Positions 10,958 to 45,162 of a stretch of DNA of 64,000 bases are shown one piece after another. The stretch is taken from positions 62,001 to 126,000 of the forward strand of contig NZ_JJOY01000024.1 in NCBI RefSeq assembly GCF_000979455.1, written 5' to 3'. Below the pieces are notes generated by a model, which was not told the DNA's origin, ran no database searches, and saw only the letters and a program-made list of their open reading frames with translations. The position numbers and the translations under genes are program-made. This DNA comes from Methanosarcina sp. 2.H.T.1A.6. GTDB lineage: Archaea > Halobacteriota > Methanosarcinia > Methanosarcinales > Methanosarcinaceae. How positions within the stretch are numbered: position 1 is the first letter of the stretch; every line of letters begins with the position of its first letter.

Positions 10958-11130
10958 GGGTGCATAAGAAATTTTGACATTTCTTTGTCGCCGTATTTTC
11001 CTTCCTTTTTTATTTTTAATTACTCTGATCGGGCTGCGAAAAGTCTGCGAAACGGCTGCAAAAAGGCTGCAAAATCAGTGTCAATAAACCAGAAAATCGG
11101 ATGAAATTAATTACAGTTAGACGAAATTAA

Positions 11131-11799
11131 TTACATATACTTCCTCCGGATCCGCCATCCGACCAGATTATCCGTTTCAACCCTCTCAACCTCTTTTCTC
11201 TCAGCCAGGTCATCCAGAATTTCAAGAAGCTCTTTTTCCTCAATTTCAATCTCGTACCTGTCTTTAAACTCAGCAGTGAGCCGGGAGATATCAAGAGTCC
11301 TGTCCCCGAGAATCTTTTCCGCAAACCCTGCCAGATCCTCATAGCGAGCCCAGGGGTAGATTATCCAGCGCCACCTGATAACCTTCTGGCCATAGAAATC
11401 CGGAGTGAAGGAAGAACAGGTCTTGTGCTGGAGGACTGCAGTTTTGATTTCAGCAGGTCTCAGGCTCTGCACGTAGTCAACCGAAAGGTCCAGGGTCTCT
11501 CCGGTATCAGTGACGTCGTCAATGATGAGCACTTTTTTCCCACTGATGTCCACGGAGATGGGAAACTTTATCCTCGCTTCTGCCTGCATATCCGCACCCC
11601 TCATGTAGTGCTCAACCTTCATAGAAGTCAGGTCATTGAAAAGCAAAAAATCGCAAACCAGCCTTCCAGGCACATAGCCTCCCCTCCCTATGGCAACGAT
11701 CAGGTCGGGCTGGTAACCTGAAGCTTTGATTTTCCGGACAAGAAGCCTGGAAAGACGAAAAACCTCTCCAAAGCTTATGAGCTCGCACCTGAAAGATAC
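11131..11799 (-). CDS. Phosphoribosyltransferase (PRTase), start unclear
   Basis: Type I PRTase with the PRPP-binding motif VLIIDDVTDTGETL and a C-terminal domain of about 80 residues (from GDRTLDISRLTAEF). The first standard start in frame is GTG at 11673, but the frame continues upstream with clear family sequence (CELISFGEVFRLSRLLVRKI, DLIVAIGRGGYVPGRL), so the true N-terminus is near 11799 or beyond. No ATG, GTG or TTG is in frame there; a run of seven A at the boundary could hide a frameshift. Related archaeal proteins are annotated as hypoxanthine/xanthine PRTases; the purine substrate is inference. Confidence 0.8.
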   Translation of the reverse strand, partial: VSFRCELISFGEVFRLSRLLVRKIKASGYQPDLIVAIGRGGYVPGRLVCDFLLFNDLTSMKVEHYMRGADMQAEARIKFPISVDISGKKVLIIDDVTDTGETLDLSVDYVQSLRPAEIKTAVLQHKTCSSFTPDFYGQKVIRWRWIIYPWARYEDLAGFAEKILGDRTLDISRLTAEFKDRYEIEIEEKELLEILDDLAERKEVERVETDNLVGWRIRRKYM

Positions 11800-40964: not shown

Positions 40965-41082
40965 TAGGACTTACGTAGTTGAACTGAGAAATCAACAGCA
41001 TTAAACCTTCAACTGTATAAAACACTAAATCGGTCACAATGCTGGATGTGTTTGATTTTGCACATCAAGTGCGTAAGTCCTA
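40965..41082. mobile_element. 118-bp miniature inverted-repeat element
   Basis: Ends are 18-base inverted repeats (taggacttacgtagttga at 40965, and tcaagtgcgtaagtccta at 41065; 16 of 18 match). No coding capacity. It lies between the RNase III stop and the decayed TPR gene. It fits a MITE mobilised by a transposase elsewhere; no clear target duplication is seen. Confidence 0.8.
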
Positions 41083-41088
41083 ATATAG

Positions 41089-42324
41089 TCAAATTGTATA
41101 ATTATGATAGTGTTCATCAAGCCATTTAATAAGGTCTACTTCCCTCAGTATGTTATTTCCTGCGGTTTTTCTGGCTTGTGATTTTGACGGCCCAGACCCA
41201 ACAGCAAAATAGTTCTGTCCCCCCAGTTGCAAATTTATGATAGCCAATTTAATATCCGACGATAATTCGCAAGTCCAGGATGCTCCACTTACGGTGTCTA
41301 ACCGGGCACTGAGCAGTATTAGCATGCCAAAAACATTTTTATGAGCCTTATGTTTTACCCAAGCTACCAATAATTCACCTGTATTATTACTCACTTTCAT
41401 TGACTCGACCTGGGACCTGTTAGGTTTACGGAAAATAAGTTCTTCAGTATCAATAGATGTTGTAGGAGATACCGTTTTTTCTTGTGACAGTAGTATACTA
41501 CTTGCAGGCTTAATCTTTGCATACTGAGGATTATCACCACTAATGGCGAGAAAGGCGGGATATGAGGCTTCATTTATGGCTTTATCCGCTTTATCTCTTA
41601 AATAAAGGTATTTTTGAGCGGCTTCAGCTTCAGCCTTCTTAACTCTAGTTCCTTCTCCTGTAGACACAATTTCACCATTTATTTCGAGTCCAACGGTGTA
41701 TTGTTTACAATGATCAGGACCAGTTTCCTCAAGCAAAGAATAATGAATATTATTTTCACCATAAAGTTCTTGAATTTTGCCTTTTGGGTCTAAATCTGAT
41801 ATTTTCTCCAAAGCACTTTTAATATCAAAAAACTTATTCACAAATTCTTTTGATTTAGAAAATCCTTGATCTCGGTAAATTGCTCCTATAAGTGCTTCGA
41901 TTACGTCTGCATATACATCTTCAATATTTCTTAAATCTCCATGGATTATATGCTCTTTAAGATTTAGTTTACATGCCACAGGAACTAGACTTTCGTTCTT
42001 TACTAGTACTGTCTTAACATTAGTTAAGATCCCTTCTATTTTTTTTATGCCATTAGCTTTCGCATATTCCTCGATATCTTCATTAAGATAAAAATGATCC
42101 GCAATAATAAGGTCTAATACTGCATCCCCCAGAAATTCTAATTTTTGGTAATTAGCATTTCTAAGACTATATTTTTGCTTGAAAATATTCATATTTGATG
42201 GAAGGCCACAAAAAAGAGATTCATGTGTTAACGCCTCTATTAAAAGGCTAATATTTTCAAATTCAATACCGATTATGTTTTGAAAACCTTCTAAATCATC
42301 TGAAAAGTCAGAGTAAATATTCAT
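41089..42324 (-). CDS. rnc: Ribonuclease III with two dsRNA-binding regions
   Basis: 411 residues. The RNase III domain (about 10-170) carries the signature NYQKLEFLGDAVLDLIIADHFY (58-79), with Glu63 and Asp67 at metal-binding positions, and the second motif VYADVIEALIGAIYRDQG with Asp140 and Glu143, so all key acids are present. A dsRNA-binding domain follows (about 179-241: KGKIQELYGENNIHYSLLEE ... KKAEAEAAQKYL), then a linker and a second, weaker one (about 320-400, ending GPSKSQARKTAGNNIL). The bacterial enzyme has one such domain and about 226 residues. RNase III is rare in archaea. GAGGA precedes the ATG and a TATA-like site lies at 42351-42358. AT-rich context and flanking mobile elements suggest transfer. 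Confidence 0.93.
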   Translation of the reverse strand: MNIYSDFSDDLEGFQNIIGIEFENISLLIEALTHESLFCGLPSNMNIFKQKYSLRNANYQKLEFLGDAVLDLIIADHFYLNEDIEEYAKANGIKKIEGILTNVKTVLVKNESLVPVACKLNLKEHIIHGDLRNIEDVYADVIEALIGAIYRDQGFSKSKEFVNKFFDIKSALEKISDLDPKGKIQELYGENNIHYSLLEETGPDHCKQYTVGLEINGEIVSTGEGTRVKKAEAEAAQKYLYLRDKADKAINEASYPAFLAISGDNPQYAKIKPASSILLSQEKTVSPTTSIDTEELIFRKPNRSQVESMKVSNNTGELLVAWVKHKAHKNVFGMLILLSARLDTVSGASWTCELSSDIKLAIINLQLGGQNYFAVGSGPSKSQARKTAGNNILREVDLIKWLDEHYHNYTI

Positions 42325-42350
42325 AATTCCTCACATTCTTGATTTTATTG

Positions 42351-42358
42351 TTTATAAA
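42351..42358 (-). promoter_or_regulatory. TATA-box candidate of the RNase III gene
   Basis: tttataaa lies 27-34 bases upstream of the RNase III ATG. If used, the transcript would be nearly leaderless and would not include the upstream inverted repeat. Confidence 0.4.
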
Positions 42359-42415
42359 GCAATTAATCAAAAACATAGGGAACAATAATTGTAAAAATAA
42401 GCTATAAAAATACAC

Positions 42416-42451
42416 TTTTAGCAAATAGATCTCAAGATTCTATTTGTTAGA
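42416..42451. repeat. Hairpin A, related to the tip of the large inverted repeat
   Basis: gcaaataga and tctatttgt form a stem. The whole stretch resembles 42547-42585 (both read ctttta-gcaaata... with a Gln-free, non-coding loop atct..aaga), so the hairpin motif is present twice. Confidence 0.75.
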
Positions 42452-42456
42452 AGGGT

Positions 42457-42677
42457 ATTTTAATTGTTTATAGTTATGATTATGTTCTTTATGTTCAAAG
42501 TTAAACTAATGATAATAGTAATAGTAAATATAATCTATTAAAGTACCTTTTAGCAAATAAATCTTGAGAACTTATTTGCTAAAAGCGTAGTTTAATAGAT
42601 TAGTTTACTACTATTAATCGCATTAGCTTAACTATAGCAACATTTAACTTATAATATAAATAACTATTTGTTAAAAT
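42457..42677. repeat. Long imperfect inverted repeat (about 220 bp)
   Basis: The tip has perfect 13-base arms (ttttagcaaataa 42548-42560; ttatttgctaaaa 42572-42584) around an 11-base loop. Moving outward, pairing continues as taatctattaaa/tttaatagatta (42531-42542/42591-42602), gtaaa and atagta blocks, gttaaactaat/attagcttaac (42500-42510/42622-42632, one mismatch), tagtta/taacta and attttaa/ttaaaat at the ends. As RNA either strand would fold into a hairpin of roughly 100 interrupted pairs. It lies between two leftward genes, 130 bases upstream of RNase III. Confidence 0.85.
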
Positions 42678-42689
42678 CGAATTATAAAT

Positions 42690-42777
42690 CTAGTGTCGCA
42701 TCAGCAGTAAAATGTCGTATAAAATCAATTACAACTATTCAGAATCAGTCAATACTTGAGGATTGACACGACACTAG
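42690..42777. mobile_element. Miniature element with CTAG flanks
   Basis: Inverted ends ctagtgtcg (42690) and cgacactag (42769) are perfect over nine bases. If CTAG is read as a target duplication, the element is 80 bases with ends tgtcgcatca / tgacacgaca (8 of 10 paired). No coding capacity. CTAG duplications are known for some archaeal insertion sequences. Confidence 0.7.
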
Positions 42778-43102
42778 TCATGTGTAGTAATGTGTCTTTT
42801 GTTTCAAATTAAAGTACTTATCAATCTCTTCACACTCCTGGCCTTAAAATTCAAATTACTTTCCTTTGCTTTTTTTCTTCAAAATAAGCCAAATCACTTC
42901 CATGCGTCTTCGGTTAAGTAAGGAATCATGATAAATTGCCTCCACTTCACAACAGTTCTCAAATATTGGATCATATTGTAAGCTGGAACAGGGTATCGAT
43001 TTCATGTTAATAGGCCAAAACTTAAGGCAGGCTTCTGGTGCAAAATCAATAGCTTTAGGGTAAGAAAATTCCTTAACCGATGACCAATGAAATCTTACTT
43101 AT
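42778..43102. other. AT-rich intergenic region
   Basis: No gene seen; short stretches recall flanks of R1 but are too short to assign. Confidence 0.4.
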
Positions 43103-44188
43103 TTACCAAAAACGCCACCATTTTTTACTTTGTGCATTTTCTGGCAAGGGTCCCATTGTTATTTTTTCTTTTAGCGCAAATTTTTCTATTTCCATACTTG
43201 TTATTTGATCCCAACGTATTGCTTTTACTGTGCTGCCATCATTTAAAATTATTAACGATTCATTTTGTATATCGTCGATTTTACCAGATATCTCCACCGC
43301 ATTTGTTTTTATTCGTAAATGAGGAAAATCATCAATATAATAATCATTTATTTTTTGCTTAAAGAGATTTGAGAATAATTTAGCGTTATTATACAACATA
43401 ATTATGAAAACACAGCTCAAACCAATAGAGACTAAATAAACACAAATAAAACAAAGGGATACAAAATAGTTTATAAGTCCTGTTAATGAGCTCGTTATCA
43501 ATTTTATAACTACGTCATCAAAATAGATCGTAAAAAATAAAACGATGGCGTTAAATCCAATAATTATTCCCATTGAAAACCAAATTGAGTAATAAAAATA
43601 TTTTGAACTTCTTTTTAATGACAATTCCTTTGTAAGTTTTGGCTCCAGGTATCCTTTTGAGTAGAAAACAATTAGATAGAAAGATATAATCATACTCACG
43701 ACTAAAGTAAAAATGTTAAGAGTTATAAGTATCATAATTAGATCTTTATCGTTATGTCCATAATTCAAATAACTGTAATATGGTGAGAGTAAAATAAAAT
43801 TATTAAATCCTCTTATTTGAGAAATCACAAAACATGAAATAAATAAAAACATCGAAAAAAGAGCTCCTATCGGCGCACCTTCAACAAACCACACGTTTTT
43901 CTTCCACGTATCTTGTTTATATTTCTCTATTTTATGATATAGATCACCTATCGGTTTGGAATTGATGATTAAAAAATTTTGATATGCGATTTTTCCTAGT
44001 GCAGGTAAATAATTTTTATTAAAGTGGCTTGAAAAATAAGCCTGAATTGGAATACATAAAAGAGGGATTATAAGACTTGTTATAATAACTCCAAATACCC
44101 CATAAGATTCCTCGATATTTATCACATTTTGCCATAAGATAATTAGGTGTAAATATAATTTATGAAATTTTTGTGATGAGATATACAT
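43103..44188 (-). CDS. Hypothetical six-to-seven-helix membrane protein
   Basis: 361 residues, strongly AT-rich codon use. Membrane segments near 33-53, 106-124, 155-180, 205-228, 240-265 and others; the last 90 residues are soluble and end with a small beta-like part (VEISGKIDDIQNESLIILNDGSTVKAIRWDQI) and the tail KKWWRFW. No family is recognised. The same aromatic ending (TWWKFW) closes the decayed frame just upstream, at 44198. Codon bias unlike the core genes suggests foreign origin. Confidence 0.7.
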   Translation of the reverse strand: MYISSQKFHKLYLHLIILWQNVINIEESYGVFGVIITSLIIPLLCIPIQAYFSSHFNKNYLPALGKIAYQNFLIINSKPIGDLYHKIEKYKQDTWKKNVWFVEGAPIGALFSMFLFISCFVISQIRGFNNFILLSPYYSYLNYGHNDKDLIMILITLNIFTLVVSMIISFYLIVFYSKGYLEPKLTKELSLKRSSKYFYYSIWFSMGIIIGFNAIVLFFTIYFDDVVIKLITSSLTGLINYFVSLCFICVYLVSIGLSCVFIIMLYNNAKLFSNLFKQKINDYYIDDFPHLRIKTNAVEISGKIDDIQNESLIILNDGSTVKAIRWDQITSMEIEKFALKEKITMGPLPENAQSKKWWRFW

Positions 44189-44629: not shown

Positions 44630-45162
44630 GACGACCAGAATTTTGGCTTCACAAAAATTCCTGCAGGTCAGCAGGAAAGTGAAAGTATTCGGTTGAGCCG
44701 TTTAAAAGGCAAAAATAAAAAAATCGATTAATTCATAATGGGGCGTTTCATCTTCTCAGGAAGGAATTGAAAAAATGATTGATTAATACTTTCAGTCCGC
44801 TATATGACTTTATTAATAAAAAATCGACGTTTTGCTATATGTGTTGAAAAAATCGGGACACGTCCCGCAGGGAAGAATTCCGGACAACTGGCACGGGTCA
44901 TTTATAACTACCTATTTATAATAATACGCAGAATTATCTGCCTGAACACATTATCCGAAAAGTGAAAAGAAAATATGAAGAGAAAATGTGAAGAGAAAAT
45001 GTGAAGAGAAAATGTGAAGAGAAAATGTGAAGAGAAGTTCTTCAAAAATGATTTTGCTTCTTGCTTCAGATTATTTTTATCTTAACCTCAAAATCTTAAC
45101 TCAAAGTTTTTAAGTCCTTACTTTATCCATCCAATTAATGAGAAAAACCCGAGAGAAGAAAT
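44630..45162. promoter_or_regulatory. Long upstream region of the uvr operon
   Basis: No gene. TATA-like sequence (tttataactacctatttataataa, in two parts, 44911-44935) could drive uvrA. A 13-bp minisatellite lies between this site and the start. Confidence 0.45.
44977..45035. repeat. Minisatellite, 13-bp unit, uvrA leader
   Basis: Four copies of gaagagaaaatgt plus a partial fifth, 130 bases before the uvrA start. Confidence 0.95.

Follow-up and report, generated by a model that had tools for sequence, protein, structure and literature searches.

In Escherichia coli, cleavage in the 5' UTR of rnc, the gene of RNase III, destabilises the rnc mRNA (PMC8708148; PMC3997798). A further case, cited by title in the second source, is the ribonuclease PNPase, which controls its own mRNA (pnp) via a double-stranded leader (PMC3997798). 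The archaeal locus analysed here can be compared with both. As in E. coli rnc (rncO), a long stem-loop lies in the putative 5' UTR on the same strand as the gene; it is a suitable RNase III substrate, and negative feedback would be expected. Unlike rncO, the present leader is archaeal, unrelated in sequence and duplicated in tandem in some genomes. It also has an anti-Shine–Dalgarno (anti-SD) strand that is common to the stem foot and to a hairpin over the Shine–Dalgarno sequence (SD). The likeness to pnp would be self-control of a ribonuclease through a double-stranded leader. The two leaders are unrelated in sequence and host. In the control of the pnp leader, two enzymes act.

As in translational riboswitches and RNA thermosensors, mutually exclusive pairings of the anti-SD would set the access to the SD. 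Unlike in riboswitches, no ligand pocket was seen here, and the signal is proposed to come from RNase III as it binds or cuts the long double-stranded RNA (dsRNA) stem. Archaeal MITEs and palindromic repeats are likewise inverted repeats in AT-rich intergenic DNA, and two of them adjoin the locus. These adjoining MITE-like repeats, however, are multicopy in this genome, while the hairpin is tied to one gene.

We consider it very probable that the hairpins are a cis-acting RNA leader of rnc. That this leader serves self-limiting control, with RNase III feeding back through the hairpins, is likely by analogy with E. coli. A covarying RNA leader on a subset of the RNase III genes of the family is previously undescribed: literature searches returned no description of such a leader, and we know of no earlier archaeal example.

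The RNase III gene and its distribution

The window is the whole stretch of 64,000 nucleotides of Methanosarcina sp. 2.H.T.1A.6 that was analysed (genome G000), and all positions refer to it unless another locus is named. The RNase III gene rnc (411 aa) is on the minus strand at 41089–42324, with its start codon at 42324. Its product matches Pfam PF14622 (2e-20), PF00636 (1.6e-14) and PF00035 (2.2e-12), as well as PDB entry 1o0w and others; the match to TIGR02191 (5.7e-44) is below the model's own cut-off. The protein comprises an RNase III domain, a dsRNA-binding domain and an extra C-terminal region (residues 246–411). The catalytic motif is intact, with E63, D67, D140 and E143 as the metal-site residues, assigned by the motif of Aquifex and E. 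coli RNase III. The C-terminal region (41092–41589) has no Pfam match. It is common to longer RNase III-like proteins in four other genomes (G062, G130, G095 and G100), and its far end resembles, by eye, a second dsRNA-binding domain.

RNase III is present in 34 of 112 genomes of the methanogen family. Among the genomes of the window's own genus that were searched, it was found only in this one. The gene was probably acquired horizontally, since the nearest relative of the RNase III core is in another genus (G103, 72% identity). The RNase III tree was poorly resolved, and the leader-bearing genes require four changes on it; they may have a single origin. An RNase III alignment search of genome contigs returned mostly bacterial RNase III, and viral contigs held distant RNase III only.

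Two tandem hairpins upstream of rnc

The region 42390–42690 folds at -85.9 kcal/mol on the plus and -81.2 kcal/mol on the minus strand (z -8.8 and -10.6), and no shuffle equalled either value. The folding of both strands that the preliminary description had suggested thus gave far better structures than shuffled sequence. That description had reported one inverted repeat of about 220 bp with a related smaller hairpin beside it. The strong fold held up and so did the related neighbour, but the repeat is not a single one: the interval cuts two tandem related hairpins.

Both hairpins are on the rnc strand. Hairpin A (42368–42499, minus strand, 132 nt, z -6.0) is proximal and ends 44 nt from the ATG. 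Hairpin B (42491–42646, minus strand, 156 nt, z -11.2) is distal, about 167 nt from the ATG, and has the longest near-perfect stem, including perfect 14-nt arms at 42547–42560 and 42572–42585. The two hairpins have a stretch of 56 nt in common with 79% identity. They are also scored by one covariance model, R1 (described below), which matched A at 42370–42499 with 95.3 bits and B at 42503–42632 with 108.3 bits. Within the window, Rfam gave no match above the gathering score. No dispersed copies of the hairpin were found in this genome, only the two tandem hairpins at the rnc locus.

The leader at other RNase III genes

Nine genomes, which belong to five genera in two families of a single archaeal order, have related hairpins upstream of their RNase III genes; this answers the question, raised in the preliminary description, of whether the repeat stands beside other RNase III genes. 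The sample comprises nine loci, two of which are near-copies of others, with start codons chosen by rule. By DNA similarity alone, the only convincing match outside this genome was in G034, where a relative of the hairpin lies just upstream of an RNase III gene; this gene has only 42% identity to that of the window. Structure was needed for the others: when the regions upstream of about 40 RNase III genes were folded, similar long hairpins emerged in G064, G067, G032, G081, G103 and G101. Together with G000 and G034, these are the first eight leader genomes.

The hairpins are on the same strand as the gene, and the proximal one ends 38–43 nt from the ATG in seven of the eight loci. A tandem pair as in the window is present in G101, and G032 and G081 have an apparent second hairpin upstream (by eye). 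Largely, the hairpins differ in sequence. What the loci have in common is an outer stem, TATTAAAA...TTTTAATA, followed by CTTATTTTT; the sequence of the inner stem varies between genera. About 30 other RNase III genes of the family have no leader, and hence RNase III does not in general require one. The remaining RNase III loci were also scanned locally, and no further leader was found.

The covariance model R1 was built from ten hairpins of these eight genomes and then applied to complete genomes. Among the 112 genomes of the family, its only matches were those ten sites and their opposite strands. Across the 186 genomes of the order, which include the family, it found one new site, in a genome of another family (G037, E 1.3e-10 for a single genome), and this site is immediately upstream of the RNase III gene there. 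There, 21 of 23 modelled pairs are standard, and an SD hairpin follows (-11.5 kcal/mol, z -2.4). An upstream in-frame start codon, when taken as the start of this gene, hides the leader. No additional site was found in the class and phylum samples. Across the family, order, class and phylum sample, every R1 match was at an RNase III gene; because of the stricter filters of these searches, weak members may be missed, and eight of the nine loci had trained the model. Many copies without RNase III, which the preliminary description had named as evidence against its idea, were thus looked for across genomes, and none were found.

In G067, the RNase III seems to be internally deleted, yet its leader is intact. 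The related RNase III genes of G114, G099 and G106 have in-frame stops, and an intact leader hairpin is absent there.

Covariation of the long stem

When the eight gene-proximal hairpins were aligned, 89.7% of the cells were paired, compared with 45–53% when the 3' strand was slid. Two-sided changes were found in 23 cells, compared with 9.0 in shuffles (0/500). G-U outnumbered A-C in the stem by 28 to 10 (p 0.0025); with the two near-copies left out, the ratio was 20 to 9 (p 0.03). Deriving the consensus structure from this very strand somewhat favours G-U. Such an asymmetry would be expected of a structure that acts in the RNA of the rnc strand, and not of a DNA element or an antisense RNA. 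The stem is kept by selection as an RNA structure.

These data bear on whether the hairpins are a mobile or DNA element (a MITE or a cruciform) that came in together with the gene or close to it. The locus is AT-rich (27–30% GC) and probably horizontally acquired, and the cassette is bracketed by two unrelated MITE-like repeats, as would be expected of such an element. Neither this genome nor any other searched has a copy of the hairpin away from RNase III, however, and both the excess of G-U over A-C and the two-sided changes in the stem argue against an element acting as DNA. We regard this origin as highly improbable.

Surroundings of the locus

One of the MITE-like repeats (40966–41084, ends TAGGACTTACG) is just 3' of the rnc stop codon and has 14 matches in its own genome, itself included. 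The second (42690–42777, CTAGTGTCGCATCA...TGACACGACACTAG) is just 5' of the leader and recurs at five further places in the genome. An ORF of 361 aa upstream of rnc (43103–44188) is membrane-protein-like and has no Pfam match. Tandem 13-bp repeats, AAATGTGAAGAGA, are located just upstream of uvrA (44945–45048).

Next to three RNase III loci are C-terminal remnants of a family B DNA polymerase, multicopy in the genus: the window (about 42830–42930, by eye), L029 (about 10966–11225) and L030 (8595–9059). The remnant was considered as a partner and rejected. Intact copies mostly have no comparable 3' hairpin, and in a non-exhaustive search no polymerase gene of this kind was seen at the other leader loci. 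The RNase III gene of G064 is near apparent type I CRISPR cas genes (L201, 8986–11855; Cas7-like sequence, by eye). As the neighbouring genes differ between loci, we do not propose a wider operon or a defence system.

Promoter position and the rnc transcript

Two equally good TATA-like sites are present on the minus strand. One, TTTATATT (about 42653–42660), is 5' of both hairpins. By analogy with the genome pairs G064/G067 and G032/G081 it is proposed as the leader promoter, with transcription starting near 42630. The other, TTTATAAA (about 42351–42358), lies downstream of hairpin A but ahead of the gene and falls within the loop of the SD hairpin.

G064 and G067 are about 40% identical further upstream, and their identity rises abruptly, to about 90% or more, at AAAACCGAAACTTATTTAAT, a sequence that resembles an archaeal BRE/TATA promoter. 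A comparable jump between G032 and G081 occurs at ATTTTTATATTATG. In both pairs, the high identity is unbroken from the TATA-like promoter through the hairpins to the ATG, and G037 has TATATATA at the matching promoter place. Given this continuous conservation, which begins at a promoter-like site 5' of the hairpins and extends to the start codon, the hairpins probably form the 5' leader of rnc and belong to the same transcript. The preliminary description had noted a TATA-like site between the hairpin and the gene and concluded that it would keep the hairpin out of the mRNA. The site exists, but the conclusion finds no support, given the continuous conservation in the two pairs and the covariation of anti-SD and SD. 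A second, shorter (leaderless) transcript may arise from the 42351–42358 site in this genome.

If that site were the own promoter of rnc, the hairpin could be a separate small RNA (an sRNA or guide) matured by RNase III. A TATA-like site is found between hairpin and gene both here and in G034, and the U5 tract, which follows the outer stem and is invariant, might serve as a terminator. In G064 and G067, however, there is no TATA-like site comparable to TTTATAAA between hairpin and gene. The conserved promoter 5' of the hairpins and the unbroken conservation into the gene also disagree with a separate RNA, as does the covariation of the SD helix with the hairpin foot. We therefore judge a separate RNA to be improbable. 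As the inner stem differs between genera, there is no conserved guide, and the CRISPR-like or guide reading was dropped for this reason. Neither the guide-like nor the mobile-element option of the preliminary description gained support, while its option of an autoregulatory leader was strengthened by conservation, covariation and the blind model match.

The U5 tract, invariant in all nine proximal hairpins, might also point to a transcription attenuator, in which the stem and the tract terminate transcription unless RNase III or another factor acts. Its conservation is, however, explained by pairing with the A-rich 5' strand in the consensus stem. Moreover, the distal hairpin B of this genome has no U5, and attenuation leaves the downstream SD helix unexplained. 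This makes an attenuator very unlikely.

The SD helix and the anti-SD strand

The SD of rnc directly follows each proximal hairpin. In the window, the SD GAGGAA (42327–42332, minus strand) is paired in an SD-sequestering hairpin (42326–42383, minus strand, -15.6 kcal/mol, z -3.2). According to the folding, the strand pairing with it, TTCCCTATG (42374–42382, minus strand), is also part of the 3' foot of hairpin A. This arrangement was absent from the preliminary description and was found in the present analysis. The 3' foot of the hairpin is complementary to the SD at the other loci as well (TTCCTTGTG, TTCCTTATG, TCCTTTTATA, TTCCCTATG and so on).

The SD hairpin has a z of -3.2 to -5.0 in six of eight loci; a z of -3 or lower was found at 3 of 60 control gene starts. 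In G034 this hairpin is weak, and in G103 it does not reach significance. In the SD helix, 86.9% of cells were paired compared with 42–60% when slid, and 11 cells had two-sided changes compared with 4.3 when shuffled (0/500). Over the seven loci with covariation, a helix covering the SD is firmly established as conserved.

In most loci, the anti-SD strand has a second pairing partner in the 5' foot of the long hairpin (for example AAGGAA or AAACAAAGGGAAC). As the same strand is used in both, pairing with the SD and pairing within the stem foot are mutually exclusive. The balance between them was computed from structure ensembles, bearing in mind that thermodynamic folding of AT-rich RNA is uncertain. 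From the full leader to the 3' fragment after a cut, the unpaired fraction of the SD fell from 0.67 to 0.02 in G064, from 0.44 to 0.10 in G067, from 0.28 to 0.03 in G101 and from 0.36 to 0.18 in G000. In G032, G081, G034 and G103, the computed equilibrium already favours a covered SD with the full leader. The predicted balance is thus even in G064 and G067, partial in G101 and G000 and on the side of the covered SD in the other four. A switch in these four must rely on the order of folding or on other control.

Proposed mechanism

Feedback is the most economical reading, since RNase III binds and cuts long dsRNA, as in E. coli rnc. The anti-SD arrangement suggests an added step, in which cutting hands the anti-SD strand to the SD. 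The promoter upstream of the hairpins would drive a leader that folds into a long dsRNA stem, or two of them in tandem, such as RNase III naturally takes as substrate, directly followed by the ribosome-binding site of rnc. The intact stem would form first during transcription and hold the anti-SD at least partly, leaving the SD free. As RNase III accumulates, the stem would be bound or cut. The released anti-SD strand would then pair with the SD, and synthesis of RNase III would stop. That the hairpins are transcribed together with rnc, that the RNase III it encodes cuts them and that the switch turns in this direction are inferences. This cleavage-driven switch, as modelled from the folds, is put forward tentatively, at somewhat under even chances.

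A simpler course would be that of E. coli, in which the stem is cut and the mRNA decays. The SD hairpin would then be a separate constitutive brake or a thermosensor, uncoupled from the stem. The anatomy is the same as that of the known rnc leader, whose 5' UTR cleavage destabilises the mRNA (PMC8708148), and in four of the eight loci the SD is covered with or without an intact stem. Set against this, the anti-SD strand is common to the stem foot in most loci, and competition is predicted in G064, G067, G101 and G000. We hold uncoupled decay to be rather unlikely. Decay and SD covering could act together, and the likelihoods given to the alternatives partly overlap with that of the preferred explanation.

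Implications

The leader is a natural candidate substrate for studies of archaeal RNase III. Covering of the SD induced by cleavage is a route directly testable in vitro and in a genetically tractable methanogen; if true, the switch would be a new way of ribonuclease self-control. The leader would also be part of a horizontally moving cassette of promoter, leader and RNase III gene. If the switch is real, bacterial-type autoregulation of RNase III would exist in archaea, whether it was transferred along with the gene or arose anew.
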